From: Mycobacterium sp.
GTDB taxonomy: Bacteria > Actinomycetota > Actinomycetes > Mycobacteriales > Mycobacteriaceae
Direction of reading: 5' to 3'
Assembly (NCBI GenBank): GCA_020438865.1
Contig: JAGQTU010000008.1
Location: forward strand, 28,855-84,724
Length of the DNA: 55,870 nt
In this document: piece by piece, positions 13,664-33,112 of the stretch
Position numbering within the stretch: the stretch's first letter is position 1
Layout of the letters: every line of letters begins with the position of its first letter
Notes under the pieces: generated by a model
The model's database searches: none
What the model saw: the letters and a program-made list of their open reading frames with translations, nothing else
Told to the model about the DNA's origin: nothing
Translations under genes and position numbers: made by a program

Positions 13664-15130
13664 ATGGCTGAACTCGCCGAACGCACCGACCAGCCCGCGC
13701 CGCGCACCCTCTTCGGGCATCCCATCGGTCTGGCCAACCTCTTCGGGGTCGAACTTTGGGAGCGCTTCTCGTTCTACGGGATGCTCACCATTCTCGGCTA
13801 CTACCTCTACTACTCGTTGACCGACGGGGGCCTGGCGCTGCCCAAGGCCACCGCCACCGGCATCGTCGGCGCCTACGGCGGTCTGGTCTACCTGTCGACG
13901 GTCCTGGGTGGCTGGGTGGCAGACCGACTGCTCGGCATGGAACGCACCGTGCTCTACGGCGGTGTGGTGGTGATGTGCGGCCACATCGCGCTGGCACTGC
14001 TGCCGGGGCTGACCGGCGTCGCCGTCGGCCTGGTGCTGATCGCGCTGGGCTCCGGTGCGCTCAAGGCAAATGCCTCATCGCTGCTGGGAACCCTGTACGC
14101 CGAAGGCGATCCGCGCCGCGACGGCGGCTTCACGCTGTTCTATCTCGGCATCAACCTCGGCGCGTTCATCGGTCCGCTGATCACCGGCCTGCTGCAGACC
14201 CACCTCGGCTTCCACTACGGGTTCGGAGCCGCCGCCATCGGCATGGCACTGGGGCTGGCACAGTACGTCGCGTTCCGGCGCAACCTGGGGGAGCACGGCC
14301 GAGCCGTCCCGCATCCGTTGTCCCGCAACCAGTTCTGGCGGATGGCCGTGGCCACCGCGGTGGTCGTCGCCGTTGTCGTCATCGCCTTCCTGGTCGGGGT
14401 TATCAAGCTGGCCAACCTGTCCCAGGTAACCACCGGGATCATCGTCGTCGCGTCGATCAGCTACTTCGCCGTCATGCTGAACAGTCCCAAGGTCGATGCA
14501 CTCGAGCGCACGCGGGTGCGCGCCTTCATTCCGCTGTTCATCGCCAACGCCGTGTTCTGGTCGCTGTTCCAGCAGATCTTCACCGTGCTCGCGGTCTACT
14601 CCGACGAGCGGATGAACTGGTCGATCTTCGGCTGGACTGCACCGTCGAACTGGATCGGCTCCATCGAACCGGTGTGGATCATCCTGCTTTCACCCCTGTT
14701 CGCGCTGATGTGGACCAAGCTGGGCCGCCGCGCGCCCACCACCCCGCGGAAGTTCGCCTATGGCGTCATCGGGATGGGCGTCGCGTTCCTGCTGTTCCTG
14801 CCGATGGCGGCCACTACCGGCCGCGCCGTGCCGGCCCTCGTCGTGATGGCCATCATGGCGGTGTTCGCGGTGTCCGAGTTGATGCTGTCGCCGATCGGGC
14901 TTTCGGTGACCACGCAGTTGGCCCCCAACGCTTTCCGCGCCCAGATGATGGCCCTGTACTTCTTCTCGGTCGGGCTGGGAACGGCGATGTCCGGGGTGCT
15001 CGCCCGGTACTACGACGAGGAGCACGAGTTCGCCTACTTCGGTATCCTGGGCGCTGCCGCGATCGTGGTGGGCCTGGTCGTCTGGGGACTGGCCCCGCGG
15101 ATCAGCCGGCTGATGGAGGGCGTGCACTGA
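13664..15130 (+). CDS. Proton-dependent oligopeptide transporter (POT/PTR family)
   Basis: A 488-residue membrane protein with about 14 hydrophobic segments. Near the N-terminus, VELWERFSFYGMLTILGYYL contains the ExxERFxYY signature of POT carriers, which import di- and tripeptides with protons. A second family stretch is FTLFYLGINLGAFIGPLITG (about 155-175). The ATG at 13664 is preceded by AAGGTGAGG and gives the normal N-terminus; longer readings add an Arg/Ser-rich tail. Its stop is 2 bp before the next start, so the two genes should be co-translated. Confidence 0.92.
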   Translation: MAELAERTDQPAPRTLFGHPIGLANLFGVELWERFSFYGMLTILGYYLYYSLTDGGLALPKATATGIVGAYGGLVYLSTVLGGWVADRLLGMERTVLYGGVVVMCGHIALALLPGLTGVAVGLVLIALGSGALKANASSLLGTLYAEGDPRRDGGFTLFYLGINLGAFIGPLITGLLQTHLGFHYGFGAAAIGMALGLAQYVAFRRNLGEHGRAVPHPLSRNQFWRMAVATAVVVAVVVIAFLVGVIKLANLSQVTTGIIVVASISYFAVMLNSPKVDALERTRVRAFIPLFIANAVFWSLFQQIFTVLAVYSDERMNWSIFGWTAPSNWIGSIEPVWIILLSPLFALMWTKLGRRAPTTPRKFAYGVIGMGVAFLLFLPMAATTGRAVPALVVMAIMAVFAVSELMLSPIGLSVTTQLAPNAFRAQMMALYFFSVGLGTAMSGVLARYYDEEHEFAYFGILGAAAIVVGLVVWGLAPRISRLMEGVH

Positions 15131-20193: not shown

Positions 20194-21657
20194 CTACGCG
20201 CCGGGCCGGCCGCCTCGAAGGTACACCGTCGTGGTGTGGGTGAAGAACTCCCGCGCGGCGGTGCCCTGCTCCTTCGGACCCAGCCCACTCTTCTTGGCCC
20301 CGCCGAACGGGACATGTGGATCGGCGCCCGCCGACTCGGAGTTCACATGCAGCACACCCACGTCGACCTGCTCGACGGCCTGCAGCACCCGCGTGAGATC
20401 CTGCGTGAAAACCGCTGCGGACAAGCCGAATTCGCTGTCATTGGCCAGTTCGAACGCCTCGTCGGCATCGGCGGCGCGGCGGACCGCGAGCACCGGGCCG
20501 AAGAGTTCCTCGGACCAGACGTCGGCGGGCTTGCTCAGTTCCACCACGGTCGGCGCGATGAAGTATCCCTCGGCCAGCGGCCCGTCACCGTAGGGCGTAC
20601 CGCCGGCGAGTACGGCGCCGCCCTGCGCTATCGCCGAATCGATGCCGGCCTGGATGCTCTTGCGCGCCGAACCGCTGACGACCGGACCCATCTGCGTCGC
20701 GTCGTCGGTCGGGTCGCCGACCGCCAGGGCGTCGGCCCGTCCCGCGAGGGCCGCCAGGAACCGGTCGGCGATCTTCTCGGTGACGATCAAACGTGAAGTG
20801 GCGGTGCACTTCTGGCCGGTGGAACGGAACGCGCCCAGCATCACCTGATCCAGCGCGAGGTCGAAGTCGGCATCATCGAGCACGATGGCGGCGTTCTTGC
20901 CGCCCATCTCGGCCTGCACCGGAACCCCGCGCGCCGCGGCGGCGGCGGCGATCCGCCGCCCCACCCCGGTGGACCCGGTGAACGTGATCGCTTCAATGCC
21001 GTCGTGGTTGACCAGCGCGTCGCCGATCGCCGAATCGCCCATCACCAGATTCAGCGCACCCGGCGGCAGGCCTGCCGCCGTCAGCGCGTCCGCGAGCCGG
21101 ACCGCCAGCAGTGGAACCGTGCTGGCCGGCTTCCACACGACGGTGTTGCCGTAGACCAGCGCCGGGGCGATCTTCCAGGCCGGGATGGCGATCGGAAAGT
21201 TGAACGGGGTGATAACGGCGACCACACCGATCGGCTTCCGCGTCACCAGGATCTGCTCGCCGGCACGCGGCGAGGAGAAGATCTCGCCGGCCTGCCGGTC
21301 GCCTTCGTTGCCGTAGTACCGCAGGATCTGGGCGGCGCGGCGCACTTCGCCCACCCCTTCAGCGCGGGTCTTGCCCTCCTCGACCGCCAGCTCCAGACCC
21401 CAGTCGTCGGCGTTGCGGTCGATCACCGCCGCGGCGTCGATCAGGATCGAGCCGCGCTGATGAGCGGGCGTTCCGGCCCACCCGGCGCGGGCCTGCCTGG
21501 CGGCGTCCACGGCCGTCTCTAGCTCGGCTGTGGTCGCCGAATCACCCTGGGCGACAACGACCGTGGGATGCGCCGGGTTGACGCTGAGCAGGCTGGAGCC
21601 GGCTCCGGCCCGCCATTCCCCGGCGATGAGGTGGCGCAGCTCGACCGTACCGGTCAT
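20194..21657 (-). CDS. NAD(P)-dependent aldehyde dehydrogenase
   Basis: A 487-residue ALDH. Catalytic residues are visible: Asn in PFNFPIAIP, Glu in QAEMGGKNAA and the nucleophile Cys in STGQKCTATSRL; GSTGVG marks the cofactor site. The N-terminal HLIAGEWRAGAG and the AHPTVVVAQ region recall alpha-ketoglutarate-semialdehyde-type enzymes, but I cannot fix the substrate. I use the ATG at 21657, 1 bp beyond the stop of the acyl-CoA dehydrogenase gene, so it is the third gene of a tightly coupled operon with two other dehydrogenases. Confidence 0.88.
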   Translation of the reverse strand: MTGTVELRHLIAGEWRAGAGSSLLSVNPAHPTVVVAQGDSATTAELETAVDAARQARAGWAGTPAHQRGSILIDAAAVIDRNADDWGLELAVEEGKTRAEGVGEVRRAAQILRYYGNEGDRQAGEIFSSPRAGEQILVTRKPIGVVAVITPFNFPIAIPAWKIAPALVYGNTVVWKPASTVPLLAVRLADALTAAGLPPGALNLVMGDSAIGDALVNHDGIEAITFTGSTGVGRRIAAAAAARGVPVQAEMGGKNAAIVLDDADFDLALDQVMLGAFRSTGQKCTATSRLIVTEKIADRFLAALAGRADALAVGDPTDDATQMGPVVSGSARKSIQAGIDSAIAQGGAVLAGGTPYGDGPLAEGYFIAPTVVELSKPADVWSEELFGPVLAVRRAADADEAFELANDSEFGLSAAVFTQDLTRVLQAVEQVDVGVLHVNSESAGADPHVPFGGAKKSGLGPKEQGTAAREFFTHTTTVYLRGGRPGA

Positions 21658-21658
21658 G

Positions 21659-22858
21659 TCAGCGGAACGCGGCTTGTCCGGTGAGGGCCTTACCGATCGA
21701 CAGCAAATGCATCTCGGAGGTGCCCTCATAGGTCAGCACCGATTCGAGGTTGTTGGCATGCCGCAGCGGTGAGTACTCCAGGGTGATGCCGCTGCCACCC
21801 AGCAGGGTGCGGCACTCCCGGGCGATCGCCAGCGCCTCGCGCACGTTGTTGAGCTTGCCCAGGCTGATCTGCTCGGGACGAACCCCTTCGGCGTCCTTGA
21901 TCCGGCCGAGGTGGATGGCCAGCAGCATGCCCTTGCCCAGTTCCAGGGTCATATTGGCCAGCTTCTCCTGGGTCAGCTGGTAGCTCGAGAGCGGACGGTC
22001 GAAGACGTCGCGCGACTGGGTGTAGGCGATGGCCGTCTCGAGGCTGTCCCGGGCGGCCCCTAGCGAGCCGAACACGATGCCGAACCGCGCCTCGTTCAGG
22101 CAGGACAACGGGGCACCGAGACCCTGGGCGAGCGGCAACTGCGCCGAGGCGGGCAGGCGGACGTTGTCCAGCACCAATTCCGAGGTCACCGACGCCCGCA
22201 GCGACAGCTTCTTGTGAATCGCATTGGCGGTGAACCCGGGGGTGTCGGTGGGCACCAGGAATCCGCGGATCCCCCCGTCGGTCTGCGCCCACACCGTCGC
22301 CACGTCGGCGAGGTTGCCGTTGGTGATCCACATCTTCGTGCCGTTGAGCACCCAGTCGCTGCCGTCGCGGCGGGCCCGGGTCCGCATGCCGGCCGGGTTA
22401 GAGCCGAAATCCGGCTCGGTCAGCCCGAAACAGCCGATGGCCTCGCCCGCGGCCAGCCGGGGCAGCCACTCGTTCTTCTGCTCCTCGGAGCCGTAGCGGT
22501 GGATCGAGAACATCGACAGCGAGCCCTGTACGGACACGAAGCTGCGAAAGCCGCTGTCGCCCGCCTCGAGTTCCAGGCAGGCCAAGCCGTAGCTGACTGC
22601 GTTGGTGCCCGCACACCCGTAGCCCTGCAGGTGCATGCCGAGCACGCCGAGCTCACCGAACTCCTTGGCGAGTTCCTTTGGCAGGGTGGCGGATTCGAAC
22701 CAGTCCTCGACGTTGGGCTTCAGCCTGGTCTCGACGAACTTGCGCACCGTGGCGGCGATGTCGCGTTCGTCGGAGTCGAGCAGCCGGTCGATGCCGAACA
22801 GCTCCAGCGGTGTGTAGGTGTCCTTCGCCGGTGGCGCGGCAACGCTGCTCATCGTCAT
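21659..22858 (-). CDS. Acyl-CoA dehydrogenase, glutaryl-CoA dehydrogenase-like (FadE7 type)
   Basis: A 399-residue flavoprotein of the acyl-CoA dehydrogenase family. LTEPDFGSNPAGMRT and MWITNGNLADVATVWAQ are the flavin and substrate signatures, and the catalytic base is the Glu of VLTYEGTSEMH near the C-terminus. Overall it resembles glutaryl-CoA dehydrogenases (FadE7/Rv0400c), which oxidise and decarboxylate glutaryl-CoA to crotonyl-CoA. It overlaps the preceding semialdehyde dehydrogenase gene by 4 bp and abuts the following ALDH gene. The context points to breakdown of a C4-C5 dicarboxylate or of lysine/5-aminovalerate-like substrates. Confidence 0.87.
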   Translation of the reverse strand: MTMSSVAAPPAKDTYTPLELFGIDRLLDSDERDIAATVRKFVETRLKPNVEDWFESATLPKELAKEFGELGVLGMHLQGYGCAGTNAVSYGLACLELEAGDSGFRSFVSVQGSLSMFSIHRYGSEEQKNEWLPRLAAGEAIGCFGLTEPDFGSNPAGMRTRARRDGSDWVLNGTKMWITNGNLADVATVWAQTDGGIRGFLVPTDTPGFTANAIHKKLSLRASVTSELVLDNVRLPASAQLPLAQGLGAPLSCLNEARFGIVFGSLGAARDSLETAIAYTQSRDVFDRPLSSYQLTQEKLANMTLELGKGMLLAIHLGRIKDAEGVRPEQISLGKLNNVREALAIARECRTLLGGSGITLEYSPLRHANNLESVLTYEGTSEMHLLSIGKALTGQAAFR

Positions 22859-24198
22859 CCGATCCGAATGAGCTTCTTGTTCACGAACTCGTCGATGCCG
22901 AACCGGCCGAGCTCGCGGCCGAAGCCGGAGCGCTTCACACCACCGAACGGCAGTTCCATGCTGTCGGCGCCGACGATGTTGACGAAAACCATGCCGGCCT
23001 CGATCTTGTCGGCCACCCGCTTGGCCTGCTCCGGATCGGTGGTGAACAGATAGGAGCCCAGGCCGAACGGGATGTCGTTTGCGATCTCCACCGCCTCGTC
23101 CTCGGAGCCTGCCTTGAACACCATGGCGACCGGCCCGAACAGCTCCTCGCGATAGGTCGCGGAGTCGGGGGAGACGCCGGTGAGCACGCCGGGCGGGAAA
23201 TGGGCGCCCTGGCGCTCACCCTGGGACGCCAGGTTCGCGCCGTCGGCCACCGCACGGTCGACCTGCTCGCCGAGGCGGGTGGCGGCGGCCGCCGAGGAGA
23301 GCGGGGCCAGGCCGTCAGCGGTCTCGAGCACCTTCTTGGTGAACTTGTCCAGGAACTCGTCGTAGAGGTCGGCGGCGACGATGAACCGCTTGGCGGCGTT
23401 GCAGGCCTGCCCGGTGTTCTCGAACCGCCCGGCGACGGCGAGGTCGATCGTGCCGTCCAGGTCGTCGGTGCTCAGCAGAATGAAGGGGTCGGATCCGCCC
23501 AGTTCGAGGACCACCTTCTTGAGGTTGCGGCCGGCGATCTCGGCCACCGCCGCGCCCGCCCGCTCCGAGCCGGTGAGCGACACACCCTGCACCCGCGGGT
23601 CGGCGATCGCCTTCGCGATCTGCTCGTTCGTGGCGTAGACGTTGACGTAGGCGCCCGCGGGGAAGCCGGCGTCGTCGAAGATCTTCTGGATGGCTGCCGC
23701 GGACTCGGGGCACTGCGGAGCGTGCTTGAGCACCACGGTGTTACCCAGCGTCAGGTTGGGTCCGGCGAACCGGGCCACCTGGTAGTACGGGTAGTTCCAC
23801 GGCATGATGCCCAGCAGCACGCCGACCGGGCCGCGCCGGATCACCGCGCTGCCCTCGCCGCCGAGCAGTTCGATCGGCTCGTCGGCCAGGAACTTCTCGG
23901 CGTTTTCGGCGTAGTACTCGTAGATCGCGGCGCTGAAGTCCACCTCGCCCAGCGCCTGGTCGACGGGCTTGCCCATCTCGCGGTGGATGATCTCGGCCAA
24001 CTCGTCGCGGCGTTCGGTGTGCAGCGCGCCGACGCGGCGGATCAGGTCCGCACGCTCGGCCAGCGTCGACTTCTTCGCCCACTCGCGGTAGGCCTTGCTG
24101 GCCGAGGCCAGCGCCTGCTCGATCTGCTTGTCGGTCGCGGTCGGATACTCCCGAACGACGTCACCGGTCTTGGGGTCGACGACTGCGTACAGACTCAT
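22855..24198 (-). CDS. gabD: NAD(P)-dependent succinate-semialdehyde dehydrogenase-like ALDH
   Basis: A 447-residue ALDH of the GabD1/Rv0234c type, somewhat shorter than generic ALDHs. It begins directly with VVDPKTGDVVREYP, has the MPWNYPYYQV Asn motif, the Glu in VLELGGSDPF and the nucleophile Cys in NTGQACNAAKRF. The likely reaction is oxidation of succinate or glutarate semialdehyde to the dicarboxylate. It heads the operon (ATGA overlap with the acyl-CoA dehydrogenase) and is divergent from an XRE-cupin regulator across a 105-bp region holding a long dyad. No aminotransferase is encoded here, so the semialdehyde must be made elsewhere. Confidence 0.87.
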   Translation of the reverse strand: MSLYAVVDPKTGDVVREYPTATDKQIEQALASASKAYREWAKKSTLAERADLIRRVGALHTERRDELAEIIHREMGKPVDQALGEVDFSAAIYEYYAENAEKFLADEPIELLGGEGSAVIRRGPVGVLLGIMPWNYPYYQVARFAGPNLTLGNTVVLKHAPQCPESAAAIQKIFDDAGFPAGAYVNVYATNEQIAKAIADPRVQGVSLTGSERAGAAVAEIAGRNLKKVVLELGGSDPFILLSTDDLDGTIDLAVAGRFENTGQACNAAKRFIVAADLYDEFLDKFTKKVLETADGLAPLSSAAAATRLGEQVDRAVADGANLASQGERQGAHFPPGVLTGVSPDSATYREELFGPVAMVFKAGSEDEAVEIANDIPFGLGSYLFTTDPEQAKRVADKIEAGMVFVNIVGADSMELPFGGVKRSGFGRELGRFGIDEFVNKKLIRIG

Positions 24199-24213
24199 GT
24201 TCCATCCTGATGG

Positions 24214-24252
24214 TTTAGTGGTGTAAAACTACAGAAGTTATATACCGCTAAA
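24214..24252. promoter_or_regulatory. Long imperfect dyad, candidate operator of the XRE-cupin regulator
   Basis: The left arm TTTAGTGGTGTAAAAC (24214-24229) and the reverse complement of the right arm (24237-24252), TTTAGCGGTATATAAC, agree at 13 of 16 positions, with a 7-base spacer. It is strikingly AT-rich against its surroundings and sits 16 bp from the gabD-like start, in the divergent region shared with the regulator. Confidence 0.65.
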
Positions 24253-24303
24253 CTTTGACTCCGCAAGGCCCTGGCGGTCGGCAGACGATGGTGAGGTGCT
24301 CGG

Positions 24304-24936
24304 ATGTCCCGGAACGCAGCCACCGCCGATGACGTCGCCGACGCCACCGACGGCTGGATGACCCGCCTCGGGCCCAAGCTGCGCTCGCTGCGAAAGGACC
24401 GGGCGCTGACACTGGAGGCGGTCGCCGACCGCGCCGGCCTCACCAAGGGTTTCCTCAGCCTCGTCGAGCGGGGCCAGACCACCATCTCGGTGCCCAACCT
24501 GCTCAAGGTGTGCGACATCCTCGGGGTGTCGGTGGGTTCCCTCTTCGACTACCCGAAATCGCCGGTGGTGCGAAGCGGCCTGGGGGCGCCGATCGAGATG
24601 GGCGGCAGCGGAATTCGCGAATACGTGTTGACCCCGCAGAGCGAACGCCACCTGCAGGTGATGCGCTCGGTGCTCAAACCCGGCGGTGGCACCGGCGGCG
24701 CCTACACCCTGGACTCGGAGACCATCTTCGTCTTCGTCGTCCGCGGCTGCCTGCGCCTGACGGTCGAGGGCGCCGAGTCATTGCTGAAAACCGGCGACAG
24801 CTACACCTTCTCGGCCCGCGCCGTGCACTCCTGGGACAACCCCGGTGAGGAGGAGGCCGAGGTGCTGTGGTCCATTGTGCCGCCCATCCCGCGGGCCGGT
24901 TCCGGCAGTACGTCCGGTTCGGTGGCCGAGTACTGA
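24304..24936 (+). CDS. XRE-family regulator with C-terminal cupin domain
   Basis: A 210-residue regulator of the PuuR type. An XRE helix-turn-helix covers about 25-80 (LRKDRALTLEAVADRAGLTKGF then SLVERGQTTISVPNLLKV), followed by a cupin at about 110-195 with GGAYTLDSETIFVFVVRGCLRL and YTFSARAVHSWDNPGEEEAEV. Such proteins sense small amines, aldehydes or carboxylates through the cupin. It is divergent from the three-dehydrogenase operon and is its obvious controller. The ATG at 24304 is used; no competing start is convincing. Confidence 0.9.
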   Translation: MSRNAATADDVADATDGWMTRLGPKLRSLRKDRALTLEAVADRAGLTKGFLSLVERGQTTISVPNLLKVCDILGVSVGSLFDYPKSPVVRSGLGAPIEMGGSGIREYVLTPQSERHLQVMRSVLKPGGGTGGAYTLDSETIFVFVVRGCLRLTVEGAESLLKTGDSYTFSARAVHSWDNPGEEEAEVLWSIVPPIPRAGSGSTSGSVAEY

Positions 24937-25338: not shown

Positions 25339-26868
25339 TCAGTGCGGCGCGGTGGGCCCCGGAGTGGGTAGCGTCGCGCAGATCTTCTGCACATCCCGGC
25401 CGGCGCTCAGCACCGTGTAGTCGGGCCGGACGACGGCCGCGTGCGCGCGCCCGCGGCGCAGCCATGCCGCCAGTTCCCCACCCGGTTCGACGATGTGCAC
25501 GGCGGCACCGCGGCTTTCGGCCAGCGACCGCTCGATCGGGCGCAACGGGCGGTCGACGATGACGGTGAATCCGTTGCCGGACGCGTCGTCGAATCGTCGC
25601 CCGTCGCGCAGCAGGGCGTTGGGGCACAACCTGCCCGCGAGTTCACCGGGCAGGTGGTACCGGTGTACCAGGGCGGTGCGGTTCAGCGGTGGGGTCTGGG
25701 AGTCGATGACGCGCTCGCGCAGTCCCGGCAGTAGATGCATCCGCGGCACGACGGTTCGGCGGGCCAGATCGCCGATCCGCCCGCCGGCGGTCATCGCCCG
25801 GCCGACCATCAGGGCGAGTCCGATCATCTTGCGGGCGTGCGGCTTCCGCTCCTGCTCGTAGGTGTCCAGAACCTCCGGACCGAGTGTGCCGTTCACGACG
25901 CCCGCGAGCTTCCAGGCCAGGTTCATCGCATCGCGTACTCCCGCGCACATGCCCTGACCCACGAACGGCGGGGTGAGGTGCGCCGCGTCGCCGAGCAGAA
26001 AGGTGTTGCCGCGCCGCCAGTGGTCGGCGATCTTCGCGCGGAAGGTGTACTCGGCCACCCGGATCACCTCGAGCTGGTCGTCGCCGACCGATCCGATCCA
26101 GGGCGCGATCAGCGGACGCAGCGCGCCGAGCGTTCGGAAGTCGTCGGCCGTCTCGCCCGCCAGCAGCCGGAACTCCCAGCGGTACCGGACGTCGCCGATC
26201 TGCATGAAGGTGCCGGCGCGGTGCGGGTCGCAGAGCTGGTGCACGCCCGCCCACTGGTCGAGGTCGGCCGTGGTGGCCACGTCCACCACCAGCCAGCGCT
26301 GCTCGAAGTTCAGGTCCCGCATGCTCGCCCCGATGCGGGTGCGCACCAGCGAGTTCGCCCCGTCGCAGCCCAGTACGTAATCCGCCTGAACCTCCTGGGT
26401 GCTCCCGTCGCCGCGGTCGGTGTAGCAGATGCGGCTACGGCCCTGCCCGATGTCGACGATGTCGCTGACCTCGACGTTGCCCCGCAGCGTGGCGGCCGGA
26501 TGGCGCTCGAGGTTGGTTCGCAGCAGCGCCTCGAACTCTGGCTGGTCGAACATGTTGGCCTCCGGGTGGCCGTGCCGGGTCCGGGCGGGATCGCGCTGGA
26601 ACTCGGCCAGGACGGTCATCGCCGGATCCAGCAGCCGCAGGCCGAGCGCGGGCCGGGAGATCTTGGCGAACTCGTCGGCGATGCCGAGCCGGTGAACGAT
26701 GCGATACACCTCGTCGTCGAGGTGGACCGCCCGGGGTTGGGGGTAGACGTCGGCCCAGCGGTCCAGGACGAGCGTTTCGACGCCGTTCTGGGCGAGCAGG
26801 GTGGCGGCGGTGACGCCGGTGGGTCCGGCGCCGATGACGACGACCGGCACGGTCTTGGATGCGATCAT
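25339..26868 (-). CDS. FAD-dependent aromatic monooxygenase (MhpA/PheA class)
   Basis: A 509-residue class A flavoprotein hydroxylase. The FAD site VVVIGAGPTGVTAATLL opens the protein, the DG-type motif is VLGCDGANSLVRTRIG (about 166), and the second FAD motif is FLLGDAAHLTPPFVGQGM (about 290), with a C-terminal thioredoxin-like extension as in 3-(3-hydroxyphenyl)propionate hydroxylases. It should add one oxygen to a phenolic ring using NAD(P)H and O2, making a catechol-type substrate for the ring-cleavage enzyme encoded at 28584. It is divergent from the TetR gene and carries the TGACGA/TCGTCA operator at its promoter. Confidence 0.9.
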   Translation of the reverse strand: MIASKTVPVVVIGAGPTGVTAATLLAQNGVETLVLDRWADVYPQPRAVHLDDEVYRIVHRLGIADEFAKISRPALGLRLLDPAMTVLAEFQRDPARTRHGHPEANMFDQPEFEALLRTNLERHPAATLRGNVEVSDIVDIGQGRSRICYTDRGDGSTQEVQADYVLGCDGANSLVRTRIGASMRDLNFEQRWLVVDVATTADLDQWAGVHQLCDPHRAGTFMQIGDVRYRWEFRLLAGETADDFRTLGALRPLIAPWIGSVGDDQLEVIRVAEYTFRAKIADHWRRGNTFLLGDAAHLTPPFVGQGMCAGVRDAMNLAWKLAGVVNGTLGPEVLDTYEQERKPHARKMIGLALMVGRAMTAGGRIGDLARRTVVPRMHLLPGLRERVIDSQTPPLNRTALVHRYHLPGELAGRLCPNALLRDGRRFDDASGNGFTVIVDRPLRPIERSLAESRGAAVHIVEPGGELAAWLRRGRAHAAVVRPDYTVLSAGRDVQKICATLPTPGPTAPH

Positions 26869-26887
26869 CCCAGCTCCTTCATATAAC

Positions 26888-26901
26888 TGACGAAATCGTC
26901 A
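26888..26901. promoter_or_regulatory. Catabolic-cluster operator, copy 1
   Basis: TGACGAAATCGTCA is a perfect dyad (6-bp arms, 2-bp centre) located 20 bp upstream of the monooxygenase start. It is part of a 24-bp stretch (26886-26909) repeated without change at 29735-29758. It is the likely binding site of the TetR protein encoded at 26975. Confidence 0.75.
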
Positions 26902-26974
26902 CATACGACTGGGCGCCAGTCAATGGGTATTGATGAATTCCTCAGAAATGAACATGGGCCGGTAGCATCGAGCC

Positions 26975-27613
26975 GTGGCCGAGGATTCCGAGCAGCGAGT
27001 CAACCGTCTGGAGCGCCGCAAGCAGCGGACGCGCGCCGCGCTGGTCCGGGCCGCGCAAGCACTGATCGCCGAGGGGCGGCTCAACGTTCCGGTCCTGGAG
27101 ATCACCCAAGCCGCGGACGTGGGCATGGGCTCGTTCTACAACCACTTCGACAGCAAGGAGCAGCTGTTCGAGGTCGCCGTGTCCGATGTCCTCGACACCC
27201 ACGGGGCGGTCCTGGACCACCTCACCGCCGACATCGAGGATCCCGCCGCGGTGTTCGCGTGCAGCTTCCGGCTGACCGGACGGTTCTTCCGGGAGCGGCC
27301 GCAGGAGAGCCGCATCCTGCTGGCCAACTGGTCGGCGCTGATGACATCCGACAAGGGCCTGGCGCCGAGGGCGATGCGTGACATCAAGGCCGCCGTCGCC
27401 GCCGGACGGTTCGACATCGACGATCCGGAACTGGCCCTCACCGTCGCGGCGGGAGCCCTGATGGGCCTTGGCCATCTGCTGGAGCGTCAGCCGCAGCGCG
27501 ATGCCGGCGCGACGGCCGATGCCGTCACCGAAAGCGTCCTGCAGCTGTTCGGGATGTCGCCCGAGGACGCCCGCGAGGTGTGCGCGCTGCCGCTGCCGGA
27601 CCTCGACTACTAG
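26975..27613 (+). CDS. TetR-family regulator of the aromatic catabolic cluster
   Basis: A 212-residue TetR repressor. The helix-turn-helix is LIAEGRLNVPVLEITQAADVGMGSFYNHFDSKEQLF (about 29-65), followed by a helical ligand domain. The GTG at 26975 is taken as start. It is divergent from the monooxygenase and convergent with the hydrolase-dioxygenase operon, and the only repeated dyad in the cluster flanks it. Its stop TAG lies in the first unit of a 4 x 13-bp tandem repeat. A pathway intermediate is the likely inducer. Confidence 0.9.
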   Translation: MAEDSEQRVNRLERRKQRTRAALVRAAQALIAEGRLNVPVLEITQAADVGMGSFYNHFDSKEQLFEVAVSDVLDTHGAVLDHLTADIEDPAAVFACSFRLTGRFFRERPQESRILLANWSALMTSDKGLAPRAMRDIKAAVAAGRFDIDDPELALTVAAGALMGLGHLLERQPQRDAGATADAVTESVLQLFGMSPEDAREVCALPLPDLDY

Positions 27614-27653
27614 GCTCGACTACTAGGCTCGACTACTAGGCTCGACTACTAGG
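27602..27653. repeat. Four perfect tandem copies of a 13-bp unit
   Basis: CTCGACTACTAGG is repeated exactly four times. The first copy holds the TetR stop (TAG 27611-27613) and the fourth holds the stop of the convergent hydrolase (27649-27651 on the minus strand). The second and third copies lie between the two genes. Both proteins are unaltered whatever the copy number. Confidence 0.97.
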
Positions 27654-28587
27654 CGTAGGCCACCGTCATCCGCTGCGTCCCGAGATCGATGGCACCGTCG
27701 TCGGTGGCCACCGAGGCCTCGATGAGGTCGCCGCTCTGCAGGTACTTCGGATTGCGCGCCTGGCTCTTGAAGAACGCCTTCCACTTCACCGCCGGCGGCA
27801 GCAGCGAGGCGATGAAGGCGATGGGTTTCGGGGGCGCGCTCAGCGCGGTGCCGACCGGTGTTCCGGTGAGGATCAAATCGCCCGGCGCAAGGTCCTGGAA
27901 CCGGCTCAGCGACTGCAGTGCCTGCAGCGGGGAGTACAGCATGTCGCCGTCGACCAGTGCGTTCTGGCGTTGCTGGCCGTTGACCCGCAGCTGCAGGCGA
28001 AGCTGCCCGAATCGCTTCAGTTCGTCGGTGTCGAGCAGCACCAGCGCCGGACCGGTGGGGGTGAAGCTCGGGTAGGACTTGGCCTCGTAGAACTGGGTCT
28101 GCGGCAACTGGATGTCGCGGGCTGAGATGTCGTTGGTCACCACCAGGCCGGCGATGTAGTCCGACAGGTTCGACTCGGAAATGTTTGTGCCGACCGGGAT
28201 GTCACGCCCGACGACGAGACCGATCTCCACCTCGTAGTCGAGGAACTTGACGTGGGCCGGCTTGATCACCCCGGCGAATGGACCGCTGATCGACGCCGAG
28301 GACTTGCGGAAGAACGTCAGCGGGATGGTTTTGGGGTCCATCCCGGCATCTTCGACGTGCGAGGCGAAGTTGGTCATCTGGGCCACCACCCGGCACGGTG
28401 TGGTCACCGGGGACAGCAGGGCGAGGTCGGCCACCGGGACGGTGCCGGTGCTGTCGGCGGCGGCCTGGATGGCGGCGCGATCGGCGAGCAACTCAGCGGT
28501 GGTGCGCGCCGACGTGGCGACCTTGGCGGCGCCGGCCGGGGTGGCGACCCACCAGGCGTCGGCGGTGCGGAGTACGGAGACGGTCAT
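27649..28587 (-). CDS. Fumarylacetoacetate hydrolase-family C-C hydrolase/isomerase
   Basis: A 312-residue FAH-fold enzyme. Metal ligands are visible in LDYEVEIGLVVG (two Glu) and TNDISARDIQ (Asp), and ILTGTPVG is the family oxyanion/metal loop. It most likely hydrolyses or isomerises the ring-opened acid made by the dioxygenase encoded immediately upstream. Its ATG at 28587 overlaps the dioxygenase stop by 4 bp, so the two are translationally coupled. Longer readings to 28764 are Arg/Pro-rich and overlap the dioxygenase, so I reject them. Confidence 0.88.
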   Translation of the reverse strand: MTVSVLRTADAWWVATPAGAAKVATSARTTAELLADRAAIQAAADSTGTVPVADLALLSPVTTPCRVVAQMTNFASHVEDAGMDPKTIPLTFFRKSSASISGPFAGVIKPAHVKFLDYEVEIGLVVGRDIPVGTNISESNLSDYIAGLVVTNDISARDIQLPQTQFYEAKSYPSFTPTGPALVLLDTDELKRFGQLRLQLRVNGQQRQNALVDGDMLYSPLQALQSLSRFQDLAPGDLILTGTPVGTALSAPPKPIAFIASLLPPAVKWKAFFKSQARNPKYLQSGDLIEASVATDDGAIDLGTQRMTVAYA

Positions 28588-29714
28588 GAGGTGGCAACTT
28601 TCAGCAGTCCGATGAGGCGGGTGAGGTCGAATTCGTTCTCCGCACGCAGCGCCGAGATCATCGAAAAAGCCTCGTGGCGAGCACTTTTCGGATCGGTGCC
28701 GAGGAAGTCTCGGGTGGCGCGCGGTCCCCACTGCGCCAGACCCGATGCGGTGAAGGGTGCCCACCCCGGCTCGAGGGTGTTGTCGAACATGTCGCCGTCG
28801 GCGTAATGCTCCATCAGGAAGCCCTCCGGGTCACGCCAATAGTCGAACAGCTGGCTGCCCTGGATGTGGCGGCCGATACCCCAGGATCGGAAGTATCCAC
28901 TGTCGTTGAGGAATTCACCGCCGGCGGCCAGCGCGTCGAGGTCACTGACCTGATAGGCCGAATGCACGTAGCGGTTGACCGGGCCCAGCGCCATCGCCAG
29001 GGTGTGGTGGTCGGAGGGGTCCGAGCCGCGGTCGCAACGGATGAAGCTCATCGTGGGACCGCGGTGGCGCTGGCCGGGGTAGTACAGGAAGTCGCTGACG
29101 ATCAAACCGAAGTGGTCGAGGTACCAGTTCAGCGCCTCGATGTATTTCGTGGACTGAAGCACCACGTGCCCCAGCCGCTGGATCGCGGCCGGCTGCCGCG
29201 GCGGACGCTGGGTGCCGTTGGCGCGGCACAGGTCGTGGCCGAAGTTGAACACGTGCGGCTGCTGGCTGGGTAGCCCGGGCAGTTCGTGCATGCCGGCGAC
29301 GACCTTCACCGGGGTGCCGCTGGGATCGGTGAGTTCGACGGCCACCCCGCCGAGCGACTCGGGCAGCCCGCGGGTGGGGGAGTTGGTCCGGTCGGCCAGC
29401 CGCAGCACGTCGATCTCGTCCTGGGCCTTGAACGCCACCCCGCAGAAGCGGCTCTGCGAGCCGCGGCGGACCAGTACGCAGGATGTGCCCGCGTCGGTCC
29501 CCCGGAGCAGCAGTTCGTCGGTACCGCGATGGGCGACGGCGAAGCCGAAGGCCCGGGCGAACGCCTCCGCCCTGGTCAGATCCGGCTTCTCGAACTCGAG
29601 CCAGGCCAGGTCGGCCACCTTGATGACCGGGTTGCGGGAGCGTCCCGGGTGCTCCCCGCGCACCGCGCCGTGCTCGCTGTGCAGGTCGTTGTGTGCGCCG
29701 ACGACATCGCTCAT
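28584..29714 (-). CDS. Extradiol (meta-cleavage) ring dioxygenase, VOC superfamily
   Basis: A 376-residue type I extradiol dioxygenase with two VOC modules and an N-terminal tail of about 28 residues. Iron ligands fall at H183 (RLGHVVLQ), H251 (YVHSAYQ) and E302 (FLMEHYADGD), with the spacing of BphC-type enzymes, and SDHHTLAMA supplies the second-shell His. It should open a catechol ring next to the diol. It is transcribed from the divergent promoter it shares with the P450, first in a two-gene operon with the FAH-family hydrolase. Confidence 0.9.
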   Translation of the reverse strand: MSDVVGAHNDLHSEHGAVRGEHPGRSRNPVIKVADLAWLEFEKPDLTRAEAFARAFGFAVAHRGTDELLLRGTDAGTSCVLVRRGSQSRFCGVAFKAQDEIDVLRLADRTNSPTRGLPESLGGVAVELTDPSGTPVKVVAGMHELPGLPSQQPHVFNFGHDLCRANGTQRPPRQPAAIQRLGHVVLQSTKYIEALNWYLDHFGLIVSDFLYYPGQRHRGPTMSFIRCDRGSDPSDHHTLAMALGPVNRYVHSAYQVSDLDALAAGGEFLNDSGYFRSWGIGRHIQGSQLFDYWRDPEGFLMEHYADGDMFDNTLEPGWAPFTASGLAQWGPRATRDFLGTDPKSARHEAFSMISALRAENEFDLTRLIGLLKVATS

Positions 29715-29736
29715 GTCGAGCCTCCCTCAAAATGAC

Positions 29737-29750
29737 TGACGAAATCGTCA
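29737..29750. promoter_or_regulatory. Catabolic-cluster operator, copy 2
   Basis: The same perfect TGACGAAATCGTCA dyad as at 26888-26901, again 23 bp from a start (dioxygenase at 29714) and 25 bp before the P450 start. The surrounding 24 bp are identical to copy 1, which argues for one regulator acting on both divergent promoters. Confidence 0.75.
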
Positions 29751-29774
29751 CATACGACGGATGAATCAGTCAAG

Positions 29775-30968
29775 ATGTCAGGCATGGGTATTCCTCCCGC
29801 CGTGCCGAGCTATGAGGTGAACATCTACACCCCCGAGGCCATCCTCGACCCGTATCCGCACTACCGGCGACTGCGGGCGTTGGGGCCAGTGGTGTGGCTG
29901 TCCCGGCACCGGGTGTACGCCCTGCCGCGCTATACCGAGTCCAAGGCGGCGCTGCGTGACGATGCCACCTTCCGGTCCGCCGGCGGGGTGGCCCTGAACC
30001 CGCTGAGCAACAGATTGTCCCTGGGTACCACCCTGGCCAGCGACGGCGCCGAGCACGAGCGACGCCGCAAACTCGTGGCCCACCGGATGCTTCCCCGGGC
30101 GCTCGGTGCGATCAACGACCAGGTGCGCCGTCGTGCCGCGGAGGTGGTCGACGCGGCGCTTCGCCGGGGTGAGGTCGACGGCGTGGACCTCGCCACCGCG
30201 CTGCCGATGGCGGTGATACCCGAGTTGGTCGGCTGGCCGGCCGATCAGCGCGAGCACCTGATCGAGTGGGCCGGTGCGACTTTCGACATCCTCGGACCGG
30301 GCAATCGCAGGATGGTGGCCGGGATTCCCCGTGCGTTCCAGATGCTCCGTTTCGCGCGCCGGGTGGTTCGTCACCGCAGTGCTGTTCCGGGCAGCATGGC
30401 CGACGACCTGTTGACCGCCGCAGGGAAGGGGACCATCGAACGCGGCGAATGCCCGGCCCTCTTGGTGGACTACCTCGGACCCGCGCTGGACACCACGATC
30501 AGTGCGATGTCCACGGCGTTGGCGCTGTTCGCCACCCTTCCGGAGCAGTGGGACCTGCTGAGGCGCGAGCCCGAGCGAATCCCCAACGCGATCAACGAGA
30601 TCGTGCGGTTCGAGTCCCCGGTCCGCGCCTTCGGGCGGCGGGTGGGGCGCGACACCGAGATCGCCGGGGTCCGCGTTCCTGCGGGCTCGCAGATGCTGAT
30701 CATGTACGCCTCAGCCAACCGCGACGAGTTGGAGTGGGAACGCCCGGACGTCTTCGACATCACTCGCGACGCCGGGCGGCATGTCGGCTTCGGCCAGGGT
30801 GCGCACGCGTGCGCGGGGCAGGCGCTGGCGCGGCTGGAGACAACCGAATTCCTGCGGGCGCTCATCGCGCGCATCGGTCGCCTCGAACTAACCGGACCGC
30901 CGGAGTGGACGCTGAACAACATCATCCGCAGGCACAGCCGGGTGCCGCTGCGCCTGGTCGCCCCCTGA
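29775..30968 (+). CDS. Cytochrome P450
   Basis: A 397-residue soluble P450. The heme-binding loop is GFGQGAHACAGQALARLE with the Cys ligand near 346; the ExxR pair is in NEIVRFESP; the I-helix has GPALDTTIS with the acid-threonine pair. It needs a ferredoxin and reductase, neither of which is adjacent (a small ferredoxin is at 12069). Divergence from the dioxygenase operon across the TetR-type operator implies it oxidises the pathway substrate, for example by hydroxylation or O-demethylation. I cannot assign a CYP family. Confidence 0.92.
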   Translation: MSGMGIPPAVPSYEVNIYTPEAILDPYPHYRRLRALGPVVWLSRHRVYALPRYTESKAALRDDATFRSAGGVALNPLSNRLSLGTTLASDGAEHERRRKLVAHRMLPRALGAINDQVRRRAAEVVDAALRRGEVDGVDLATALPMAVIPELVGWPADQREHLIEWAGATFDILGPGNRRMVAGIPRAFQMLRFARRVVRHRSAVPGSMADDLLTAAGKGTIERGECPALLVDYLGPALDTTISAMSTALALFATLPEQWDLLRREPERIPNAINEIVRFESPVRAFGRRVGRDTEIAGVRVPAGSQMLIMYASANRDELEWERPDVFDITRDAGRHVGFGQGAHACAGQALARLETTEFLRALIARIGRLELTGPPEWTLNNIIRRHSRVPLRLVAP

Positions 30969-31121: not shown

Positions 31122-31352
31122 ATGATCAAGACGAAGCTTGCGGCCTGGGTTGCGGCGACAGCGGCGGTGACGGTGATCGGGGGCGCCACGGGCGGACAAG
31201 CCGTCGCGGCGAGTTCGGCGACGGATACCGGTCAGACGACGCCGACGACGAACTCGCAGACCCTGGTGATGGATCCGACCAAGAGTTTCGCGATGAAGGC
31301 CACGCCGTCGGTCAAGGCAACCCCGTACTGGGGTGAGAAGAAGCCCGGCTAG
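31122..31352 (+). CDS. Small exported protein behind a copper-type operator
   Basis: A 76-residue protein with a Sec signal peptide: MIKTKLAAWVAATAAVTVIGG then GGQAVA-A, giving a predicted cleavage near residue 29. The mature peptide of about 47 residues is Thr/Ser/Lys-rich, has two Met, one Trp and one Tyr, and no Cys or His, so it is not a metallothionein. GAAGGGGG lies before the ATG. Its stop codon is the TAG of a CTAG whose other strand is the stop of the sulfatase. I recognise no family; the upstream dyad suggests copper-responsive expression and a role outside the membrane. Confidence 0.78.
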   Translation: MIKTKLAAWVAATAAVTVIGGATGGQAVAASSATDTGQTTPTTNSQTLVMDPTKSFAMKATPSVKATPYWGEKKPG

Positions 31353-33112
31353 CCGAAGAACAACCTGCGCCGTCGGGCGTGCGGCTCCCTGCGTACGTAC
31401 GGCCACGGATTGTTCCGTTCCGGAACCGATTCAGCCCGAGCCTGTTTCAGCTGTACCTTCAGATACTGCCGCAGGTCATCCAGATCGGGGTCGGACCAGC
31501 GGTTGTCCGCCTCGATCGGGTCGTCGGTGAGGTCGTAGAGCTCCCACTGGTCGTCGAGTGGGCTGGTGCGGTATGTCTCACCGCCCAGGCCGTTTGCCGC
31601 GAGATTTCGCACCCCAGGTTCGGTCCAGGTCGACGGATCGTCGAAGGTGCGGACGAGCTTCCACAGGTGTTCGCCGACCCGCATCACCAATCCCTCGAAA
31701 TTGGACGCGGTATGCGCCGGGATCCGGATCCTCAGCGGCGCAGGCGGATTCGAGGTCCGCTTCAAAGCGCGCGCCAGCCCCGACGCGCCGGTGTCGCCGT
31801 CGAGCATGTTGTCCCGGGTCACCAGATAAATCGCCCGCTCGTCGTCGGCCGGCGCGCCGTCCACCACCGGCATGAGATCCCGGCCCGGCAGTGGGTGCAC
31901 CTCGGAGAACGACTCACGCAGGACGGCGGCGAGTGAGGGGACGTCGAGACCGGCGGCGCCGAGCAGGGTCGGAACCAGGTCGACGTGCGAGGTCGGTGTG
32001 CTCACCACCCGCGGTTGGGTGGCGCGCTCGCCGATCCGGGCGATCACGAACGGCACCCGGGTGGCCTCGTCGTAAAGGTTGAACCACTTCTGGTGCAGCC
32101 CGCCGTGCGCGCCGAGTAGATCGCCGTGGTCGGCGGTGCGGACCAGCACCGCGTTGTCCGAACCGCCATCCGTGACAGCTCTCCGCACCCGGTCGATGGG
32201 GATGTCGACCTCGGCGTGCAGTCGGTAGTAGAGGTCGCGGTACTGCTGCGCGTTGCGCTGGTAGATCCGCTCGATGGCCGCTGCCGGGCCGTAGCCGGAG
32301 TAGTAGGCCTCGCGGAAGGCGATCTGCGCGGCGGGTTTGGTCCGCAGATCCTCGCCGCCGGTCGGCGCCGGTGGCACCGTCGGCGGATCGACGGATGACG
32401 GGTCCAGCGGACCGCGGCGGACCCACGTCGGGAACAGCACGATGTCGTGCGGGTTCACAAAACTGGCGACCAAGAGGAAGGGTCGGCCCGCGGCCGGATC
32501 ACCGGCGCGGCGGCGGGCGTAGCGGTCGGTCAGCCATGCGACCACCCGATCGGCGATCAACGGGTCGCGGCGCAATCCACTGTTGGCCAGGCCAGCTCCG
32601 TGCGGTTCGGGGCCGACCCACCCGGAGAAGCCGAATGCCGACAGCGGGTCGGCGTCGAGGTACTGCTGCACGGCCGCCGAATCGACGACCCCGTTGTCGT
32701 CGTTGGTGGCCAGCGGTCCCCCGGTGGCGGAGTCGTGCAGGTCGGCGTGCGAGATGTGCCACTTGCCGTCGTAGAGGGTGTCGTACCCCGCCGCGCGGAA
32801 CCAGTTGCCCAGGGTGGGCACCTCGCCGCGCCGCAGCCAGCGCATCCGGGAGTCGTCGTAGGCCTTGCCGATGCCGTCGGTCTGGGTGACACCGTGCAGG
32901 TCCGGGTACTGGCCGGTGAAGATGGTCGGACGGCTCGGGACGCAGGCCAGCGATCCGGTGTAGTGCCGGGTGAAGCTGACGCCGTGCTCGTCGAACCAGC
33001 GTCGGCCGGTCAGGACGCGTTCACGCCAGGCGAGGACGGCCTCGTCCTCGTAGGGCGGGATGGCGCGTTCCTCGTCGGTCATCACGATGACGATGTCGGG
33101 GCGATCAGTCAT
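31349..33112 (-). CDS. Sulfatase (formylglycine type)
   Basis: A 587-residue alkaline-phosphatase-superfamily sulfatase. The modification site C57-V-P-S-R61 in SLACVPSRPTIFTGQYP is intact, so it needs formylglycine-generating enzyme. The N-terminal metal site IVIVMTDEER and the downstream VLVRTADHGDLLGAHG and HQKWFNLYDEATRVPFV are typical of choline-sulfatase/arylsulfatase-like enzymes. No signal peptide is seen, which suggests a cytoplasmic substrate. The ATG at 33112 overlaps the SRPBCC stop by 8 bp. The specific sulfate ester is unknown. Confidence 0.9.
   Translation of the reverse strand: MTDRPDIVIVMTDEERAIPPYEDEAVLAWRERVLTGRRWFDEHGVSFTRHYTGSLACVPSRPTIFTGQYPDLHGVTQTDGIGKAYDDSRMRWLRRGEVPTLGNWFRAAGYDTLYDGKWHISHADLHDSATGGPLATNDDNGVVDSAAVQQYLDADPLSAFGFSGWVGPEPHGAGLANSGLRRDPLIADRVVAWLTDRYARRRAGDPAAGRPFLLVASFVNPHDIVLFPTWVRRGPLDPSSVDPPTVPPAPTGGEDLRTKPAAQIAFREAYYSGYGPAAAIERIYQRNAQQYRDLYYRLHAEVDIPIDRVRRAVTDGGSDNAVLVRTADHGDLLGAHGGLHQKWFNLYDEATRVPFVIARIGERATQPRVVSTPTSHVDLVPTLLGAAGLDVPSLAAVLRESFSEVHPLPGRDLMPVVDGAPADDERAIYLVTRDNMLDGDTGASGLARALKRTSNPPAPLRIRIPAHTASNFEGLVMRVGEHLWKLVRTFDDPSTWTEPGVRNLAANGLGGETYRTSPLDDQWELYDLTDDPIEADNRWSDPDLDDLRQYLKVQLKQARAESVPERNNPWPYVRREPHARRRRLFFG

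Follow-up and report, generated by a model that had tools for sequence, protein, structure and literature searches.

Organization of the gene cluster

The window analyzed here is a 55,870-nucleotide stretch of a Mycobacterium sp. genome (contig JAGQTU010000008.1), and the subject of this work is a gene cluster at positions 25339 to 30968 of it. The cluster encodes an FAD monooxygenase (FMO), a TetR-family regulator, a fumarylacetoacetate hydrolase (FAH)-family enzyme, a two-domain extradiol dioxygenase, and a cytochrome P450, and it carries three copies of a candidate TetR operator (Table 1). The predicted coordinates of all five genes agree with the open reading frames (ORFs) of the window. 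The start of the FAH gene overlaps the stop of the dioxygenase gene, and the outer operator copies are close to the genes that they precede, with 17 bases between copy 1 and the FMO start, 20 between copy 3 and the dioxygenase start, and 16 between copy 3 and the P450 start. As detailed below, we favor, with moderate confidence and on the basis of sequence comparison, the interpretation that the cluster is a catabolic regulon under TetR control and that it serves to degrade a phenol of the resorcinol type (5-alkylresorcinol or orcinol class), possibly supplied as a methyl ether.

Table 1. Genes and candidate regulatory elements of the cluster, with positions in the window
Feature	Position	Strand	Evidence or context
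FAD monooxygenase (FMO), MhpA/HbpA-type group A flavin hydroxylase	25339..26868	-	PF01494, NF004829, nearest solved structure
Operator copy 1, 24-mer; dyad core 26888-26901	26886..26909		Overlies the expected FMO -10 region
Candidate FMO -35 box, TTGACT	26918..26923	-	Starts 22 bp before the dyad
Operator copy 2, degenerate (TGATGAATTCCTCA)	26931..26944		Between the TetR start and the FMO promoter
TetR-family regulator, GTG start	26975..27613	+	PF00440, PF21306; Met51 covariation in relatives
FAH-family enzyme, 312 amino acids; putative 2,4-diketo acid (acylpyruvate) hydrolase	27649..28587	-	PF01557
Two-domain extradiol dioxygenase of the vicinal-oxygen-chelate kind, with C-terminal extension	28584..29714	-	TIGR03213 below cut-off; BphC/HsaC-type matches
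Operator copy 3, 24-mer as in copy 1; dyad core 29737-29750	29735..29758		In the gap separating the dioxygenase gene from the divergent P450 gene
Candidate dioxygenase-FAH -35 box, TTGACT	29768..29773	-	Starts 23 bp before the dyad
Cytochrome P450, CYP199 neighborhood, optional member	29775..30968	+	34% identity to CYP199A4

Relatives of the cluster

A scan of a genome collection returned 441 stretches encoding relatives of the dioxygenase, of which the best 80 loci were kept. Since several of these loci are cut by contig ends, counts of absence within the set are upper bounds. An FAH-family gene adjoins the dioxygenase gene in all 80 loci. With a length filter applied, an FMO gene is present in 75 loci (one more, in L060, is cut by a contig end) and was not found in L041, L044, L052, and L059; likewise, a TetR gene is present in 72 loci (L011 and L074 each hold one cut by a contig end) and was not found in the stretches covered of L044, L052, L059, L066, L068, and L078. 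The commonest order consists of a divergent TetR gene followed by dioxygenase-FAH-FMO(-P450). In the subgroup that includes the window, the TetR and FMO genes are located behind the FAH gene (L005, L013, L032, L047, L054, and others), and in L013 and L054 the P450 gene diverges from the dioxygenase gene as it does in the window.

Of 148 genomes examined in the genus, 102 encode the dioxygenase. It is encoded in 82 of 251 genomes of the family (one of these being a distant match at 35% identity) and in 10 of 396 genomes of a phylum sample, the window's own genome included. Relatives of the cluster were also found on plasmid records of Rhodococcus, Streptomyces, Burkholderiaceae, and Microvirga. 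One of them (L087), a TetR-dioxygenase-FAH-FMO cluster, is on a Prescottella equi plasmid typed as conjugative. For the partner-gene counts given below, 23 regions drawn from match lists of 159 and 34 plasmid records were reduced to 19 loci, two of which (L092 and L128) come from one plasmid, and 20 regions from the family were likewise reduced to 19. The regions left out, L124-L127 and L176, respectively, have FAH and FMO genes that are not arranged as in the cluster.

A probable shared operator in the cluster

As originally predicted, the 24-mer ACTGACGAAATCGTCACATACGAC is identical in operator copies 1 and 3, and the identity ends exactly at both edges. Its core dyad, TGACGA-N2-TCGTCA, has two perfect matches in the window. 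When up to two mismatches are allowed, the window contains 10 matches, as compared to a mean of 3.0 in 100 shuffled sequences, none of which reached 10. The prediction that one TetR-type operator joins the cluster gained comparative support; its count of two sites did not stand, as the degenerate copy 2, located 43 bp from copy 1, brings the number to three.

Across the 80 loci, a perfect dyad is found within 300 bp upstream of the dioxygenase gene in 64, and dyads with one, two, and three mismatches are found in 10, 3, and 3 loci, respectively. Of the 64 loci in which the first operator is perfect, 52 have a second one with 0-2 mismatches, located 42-45 bp upstream of it. In total, the 1,473,483 bases of the 80 loci contain 77 perfect dyads, 76 of which fall within the 57,815 bases upstream of a dioxygenase, FMO, P450, or TetR gene. 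The only perfect dyad outside the cluster (L020, position 17933) is upstream of a large GAF-/histidine-kinase-like ORF, the translation of which was read by eye. The sequence TTGAC begins 23 bp before the dioxygenase operator in 62 of the 64 loci, and thus the operator covers the expected -10 position, a layout which would be that of repression.

The genome-wide search for the 14-bp dyad that had been proposed as a check was carried out on the own assembly, which is 90.9% complete. It returned four perfect places, two of which are those in the window. The other two have different centers, with one located within a coding ORF and the other just behind a VWA-type ORF. Allowing one mismatch gave at least 61 places, as compared to 18 for the reversed pattern, and a wider regulon that uses imperfect sites may exist. 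Taken together, the comparative support is strong, and the assignment of the 24-mer as a probable TetR operator is well supported.

Covariation of TetR residue 51 with the operator

The N-terminal helix-turn-helix domain of the TetR protein is present (PF00440, 34.1 bits; cut-off, 24), and PF21306 (TetR_C_40) matched as well. To compare regulators with operators, 90 loci were offered, 83 of which were usable, having a TetR helix that could be read as well as a candidate operator; the candidates were chosen blind to base 4 of the operator. Among 85 positions, mutual information with operator base 4 peaks at residue 51 (0.55 bits; the next position has 0.40). Met51, which is located in the recognition helix region, is accompanied by one or more C half-sites in all 73 loci that have it, 63 of which have C in both. 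Val51 occurs with A in both half-sites (5/5) and Phe51 with T (3/3), while the single Ile51 and the single Asn51 both occur with C.

A further set of 20 family regions yielded 17 with a readable helix (L168 and L175 were read by eye). Here Met51 again occurs with C (10/10) and Phe51 with T (2/2; L168 and L177, both with imperfect palindromes). Asn51 is found with C in three of three regions, Leu51 with C in L183, and Thr51 with an A-type site in L178. In L171 and L182, a site is present at only one of the two promoters examined. In the dioxygenase tree, placement of the five Val51 loci in one clade against all rows was rejected (p-AU 0.0007). Weighing against the pairing, the Val group becomes one side of a branch when the Val and Phe rows are taken alone, and the well-supported branches provide one independent pair only, so that the independent covariation events are few. 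The comparison supports that TetR residue 51 and the fourth operator base probably change together (Met/C, Val/A, and Phe/T). The gene set and the operators are supported by comparison as well.

The predicted catabolic enzymes

The FMO matches PF01494 (FAD_binding_3) with an E value of 2.9e-64, and its nearest solved structure is 2-hydroxybiphenyl 3-monooxygenase (HbpA). For the dioxygenase, no Pfam model matched. NCBIfam models for 2,3-dihydroxybiphenyl and other extradiol dioxygenases did match, far below their cut-offs; TIGR03213, for instance, gave an E value of 2.5e-13 and 50.1 bits against a cut-off of 366.45, and the protein is therefore not filed as a 2,3-dihydroxybiphenyl 1,2-dioxygenase. 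Its profile aligns to BphC/HsaC-type structures. The three residues that the original prediction had singled out, H183, H251, and E302, do not vary across 17 diverse dioxygenases, down to 37% identity, or across 25 mycobacterial sequences; H236, H237, H283, and Y292 are likewise invariant in the 17. We take H183, H251, and E302 to form the 2-His-1-Glu iron site, with the catalytic His and Tyr among the other four. The predicted structure of the dioxygenase has a mean pLDDT of 50.

The FAH protein matches PF01557 with an E value of 7.4e-45, and residues H77, E119, E121, D153, and K170 are invariant in 17 of 17 sequences. Presumably, E119, E121, and D153 bind the metal, and K170 and H77 are acylpyruvase-type residues. 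A 2,4-diketo acid hydrolase and the acylpyruvase FAHD1 are found lower in the list of structure matches. We infer that the protein is an acylpyruvase that hydrolyzes a 2,4-diketo acid.

The P450 has its nearest solved relatives among CYP199 enzymes and is 34% identical to CYP199A4, a 4-methoxybenzoate demethylase, over 387 aligned residues. It retains the heme Cys loop, the Asp-Thr pair, and Phe183, Val296, and Phe299 of CYP199A4. The carboxylate-binding Arg and Ser residues, which we take to be R92, S95, R243, and S244, are lost: chain positions 93, 96, 244, and 245 of CYP199A4 correspond to a gap, Gly, Val, and Asp, respectively. A CYP199A4-type benzoate demethylation is therefore unlikely, and this candidate function was rejected; a neutral aryl ether or an alkylphenol is a more likely substrate. 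A P450 at 53% identity or more is present in 29 of the 80 loci. L078 has one at only 30% (30 in all), L060 has one cut by a contig end, and none was found in the remaining 49, some of which are cut by contig ends. P450s of 36-41% identity are located near the cluster in six family regions, and those in L169 and L179 have a dyad-like site upstream. This distribution suggests that the P450 is a recurring but exchangeable peripheral step. Its predicted place in the pathway thus stands as a probable peripheral oxidation and falls as a fixed member of the cluster.

Partner genes in relatives

Two kinds of partner gene, found in relatives of the cluster, bear on the fate of the cleavage product and on the substrate. 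The first is a coenzyme A (CoA) ligase, which by reading the gene neighborhoods by eye was found within the cluster in 15 of the 19 plasmid-record loci with dioxygenase and FAH, in 9 of the 80 loci, and in 6 of the 19 family loci. The ligase of the Streptomyces locus L089 is an acetoacetate-CoA ligase (TIGR01217, 816 bits; cut-off, 521) and the copy in L107 is 97% identical to it, while the ligases of L040, L090, L091, and L092 are of the NF005714 type, all four scoring above the cut-off. The own genome encodes one acetoacetate-CoA ligase over the cut-off, located elsewhere than in the cluster, and no NF005714-type ligase over the cut-off. A PlsC/DAGAT-like acyltransferase was observed in or near the cluster in several loci (L040, at 13946-14719 beside the CoA ligase, and L035, L045, L050, L075, L168, L172, and L177); as a speculation, such an enzyme would suit a long side chain.

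The second partner is a molybdenum (Mo) enzyme. In the operon of Burkholderia stagnalis (L091), the best solved match of this enzyme is the large subunit of pyrogallol hydroxytransferase, 4v4c (E value 2.9e-274, 915.7 bits), and the PF21423 domain is present. Large subunits at 80-90% identity were detected by tblastn in L092 (Cupriavidus), L109, and L110 (both Paraburkholderia), giving 4 of the 19 plasmid-record loci; there was no match in the 80-locus set. An FMO was not found in the covered stretches of L091, L092, and L110, and L109 contains both the Mo enzyme and an FMO. It should be noted that in these four operons an enzyme type known from anaerobes sits with an O2-dependent extradiol dioxygenase, and that in the L091 large subunit 138 residues precede the matched part.

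Proposed pathway and alternatives

FAH-type C-C hydrolases act on 1,3-diketones. Extradiol cleavage yields a 2,4-dioxo acid only from a catechol that has an oxygen at ring position 5, and a 5-oxygenated catechol with a carbon side chain at position 3 is the 2,3,5-trihydroxytoluene-type intermediate of the orcinol pathway. An FAH protein behind an extradiol dioxygenase, together with this requirement for a 5-oxygen and with the CoA ligases and the Mo enzyme of relatives, points to a resorcinol-type route. The reactions, the substrate, and the direction of regulation given here are what we infer from these genes. The TetR repressor would occupy the operators over the -10 regions of the dioxygenase-FAH and FMO promoters until released by an inducer. 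Where a P450 is present, it would carry out a peripheral step, e.g., an O-demethylation. The FMO would then hydroxylate the resorcinol-type phenol to a 2,3,5-trihydroxy-alkylbenzene, the dioxygenase would cleave the ring beside the alkyl group to give a 2,4,6-trioxo acid (R-CO-CH2-CO-CH2-CO-COOH), and the FAH-type acylpyruvase would split this into pyruvate and a beta-keto acid (R-CO-CH2-COOH). Finally, a CoA ligase, encoded in the cluster in many relatives and elsewhere in the own genome, would ready the beta-keto acid for thiolysis. The original prediction had read a short ring-cleavage route from the encoded enzymes, and this outline holds, with the proposed route needing neither a hydratase nor an aldolase.

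Several observations weigh against this interpretation, and some of them are what the alternatives build on. The window cluster is without a CoA ligase of its own, no in-cluster ligase was found in 71 of the 80 loci (some cut by contig ends), and the distant dioxygenase relatives in L124-L127 and L176 are accompanied by other enzymes. The FMO scores over the cut-off of NF004829 (620.8 vs 390 bits), a subfamily named 3-hydroxyphenylpropionate hydroxylase, which together with the HbpA structures as best match and the BphC/HsaC-like dioxygenase would fit an ordinary meta-cleavage. Here, the FMO would ortho-hydroxylate an alkyl- or aryl-phenol as HbpA and MhpA do, the dioxygenase would cleave the resulting 3-substituted catechol, and the FAH protein would replace the alpha/beta hydrolase. 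We consider this unlikely, if the most serious of the alternatives, because of the 1,3-diketone chemistry of FAH-type hydrolases noted above and because it is at odds with the Mo enzyme and the acetoacetate-CoA ligase that relatives carry; in addition, the annotations of the cluster records, which were not searched with models for these families, contain no in-operon alpha/beta hydrolase, hydratase, or aldolase. Among solved structures, the FAH protein comes closest to decarboxylases/isomerases of the HpcE type (best profile match HpcE/HpaG, 1gtt, E value 4e-48), which weakens the case for hydrolysis and would suit a homoprotocatechuate-like route with the FAH protein as an HpcE-type isomerase/decarboxylase. 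Such a route is in keeping with the aldehyde dehydrogenase genes located close to the cluster in L091, L112, and the window. We regard it as distinctly improbable, as the FAH protein reaches 103.3 bits against an HpaG cut-off of 276.4 and the aldehyde dehydrogenase block of the window recurs beside the cluster in only part of the 80 loci.

Two further alternatives start from the P450, and we give very little credence to either. With CYP199 enzymes as its nearest solved relatives, the P450 could be a CYP199A4-like demethylase that feeds a para-methoxybenzoate funnel, in which the remaining genes would degrade the hydroxybenzoate; the low identity, the replaced carboxylate-holding Arg and Ser, and the 49 loci in which no P450 was found all argue against this. 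The P450 and the extradiol dioxygenase could also carry out an estrogen-type A-ring degradation, as they share a cluster in the aedA/aedB system of Rhodococcus sp. B50 (PMC12507874), and the CoA ligase of many relatives would be compatible. The constant members here, FAH and FMO, are not among the genes named for aed in the available part of that paper, which describes AedG/AedH/AedJ and beta-oxidation genes as the partners, and the P450 is often missing from our loci. Neither genes of the AedG/AedH/AedJ type nor such beta-oxidation genes were recognized among the recurring neighbors of the cluster, which were not searched with models for these families. As for the possibility that the shared 24-mer is a chance or nonregulatory repeat, the location of 76 of the 77 perfect dyads upstream of cluster genes and the covariation with TetR residue 51 leave it next to no weight, and it was rejected.

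Relation to known systems

The enzyme combination of the cluster has a probable counterpart in print. For Rhodococcus jostii RHA1 and R. opacus B4, an eighth central pathway for aromatics ("VIII") was reported to consist of a hydroxylase, an extradiol dioxygenase, and a hydrolase, with the substrate unknown (PMC6498646). According to the figure legend, its genes include those for an acetoacetyl-CoA synthetase, a monooxygenase of the PheA/TfdB family, a 2,3-dihydroxybiphenyl dioxygenase, and a possible fumarylacetoacetate hydrolase. By gene type, our cluster agrees with it in having an FAD hydroxylase, a dihydroxybiphenyl-type extradiol dioxygenase, and an FAH-type hydrolase; the ligase is present only in relatives of the cluster. 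In contrast, the legend also lists an AsnC-type regulator, a flavin reductase, and acyl-CoA-dehydrogenase-like genes, and it names neither a P450 nor a TetR operator. We think that the two are the same pathway type, likened here by gene types rather than by sequence, as far as the available text of PMC6498646 describes it. The cluster had been put forward as undescribed. With this pathway in print, that claim does not wholly hold for the enzyme combination, and it stands for the substrate and the regulon. In a literature search that covered few subscription papers, we found no mycobacterial naming of the cluster and recognized no alkylresorcinol or orcinol role for it.

The comparison extends to other systems. 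The cluster differs in its named genes from the 2-isopropylphenol ipp cluster (PMC12442392) and the acetosyringone asd cluster (PMC12911418), as given in the available parts of these papers. Resorcinol hydroxylase RhL and the pyrogallol-phloroglucinol transhydroxylase PgtL are placed in one Mo family in the available part of PMC10100899. A homolog of these enzymes is encoded beside dioxygenase and FAH in the four Burkholderiaceae loci described above, while the window uses an FMO. The chemistry that we predict is also that of the orcinol pathway of Pseudomonas putida ORC, which proceeds through an FAD hydroxylase, extradiol cleavage of a 2,3,5-trihydroxy aromatic, and hydrolysis of a 2,4,6-trioxo acid; this pathway is not known to include a P450, a TetR operator, or a beta-keto acid ligase.

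We see in the cluster a widespread form of a pathway kind that is already known but has no substrate assigned to it. A broader proposal, which we hold only tentatively and at somewhat less than even odds, is that it represents a general actinobacterial regulon for resorcinolic lipids or orcinol ethers, which would solve the substrate of the orphan Rhodococcus pathway. Such a regulon would be built on either a flavin or an anaerobe-type Mo resorcinol hydroxylase, and TetR residue 51 would read the fourth operator base (Met-C, Val-A, Phe-T), in pairs distinguishable by sequence. The dioxygenase is encoded in roughly two of every three genomes examined in the genus. Naming a concrete substrate class, i.e., orcinol and 5-alkylresorcinols with their methyl ethers, makes the question of the orphan pathway testable with available compounds. 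The operator is in turn a marker for the regulon and a candidate sensor for resorcinol-type phenols.

Neighboring features

The genes that flank the cluster recur in some loci only, and we therefore do not count as parts of it the block at 20194-24936 or the sulfatase, SRPBCC, LigD-like, and FadD-like genes on the right-hand side. The block encodes an XRE-family regulator, two aldehyde dehydrogenases, and an acyl-CoA dehydrogenase, and it is found at 78-95% identity beside the cluster in L005, L013, L032, L047, and L054. The sulfatase-like gene, beside an SRPBCC protein (window 31349-33100), is found next to the cluster at 79-85% identity in 9 of the 80 loci. Between the convergent ends of the TetR and FAH genes, at 27602-27653, a 13-base unit, CTCGACTACTAGG, is repeated in four head-to-tail copies, each of which contains a TAG. 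Behind the P450 gene, at 31122-31352, an ORF of 76 amino acids has a signal-peptide-like start (MIKTKLAAWVAATAAV...) and perhaps encodes a small exported protein.

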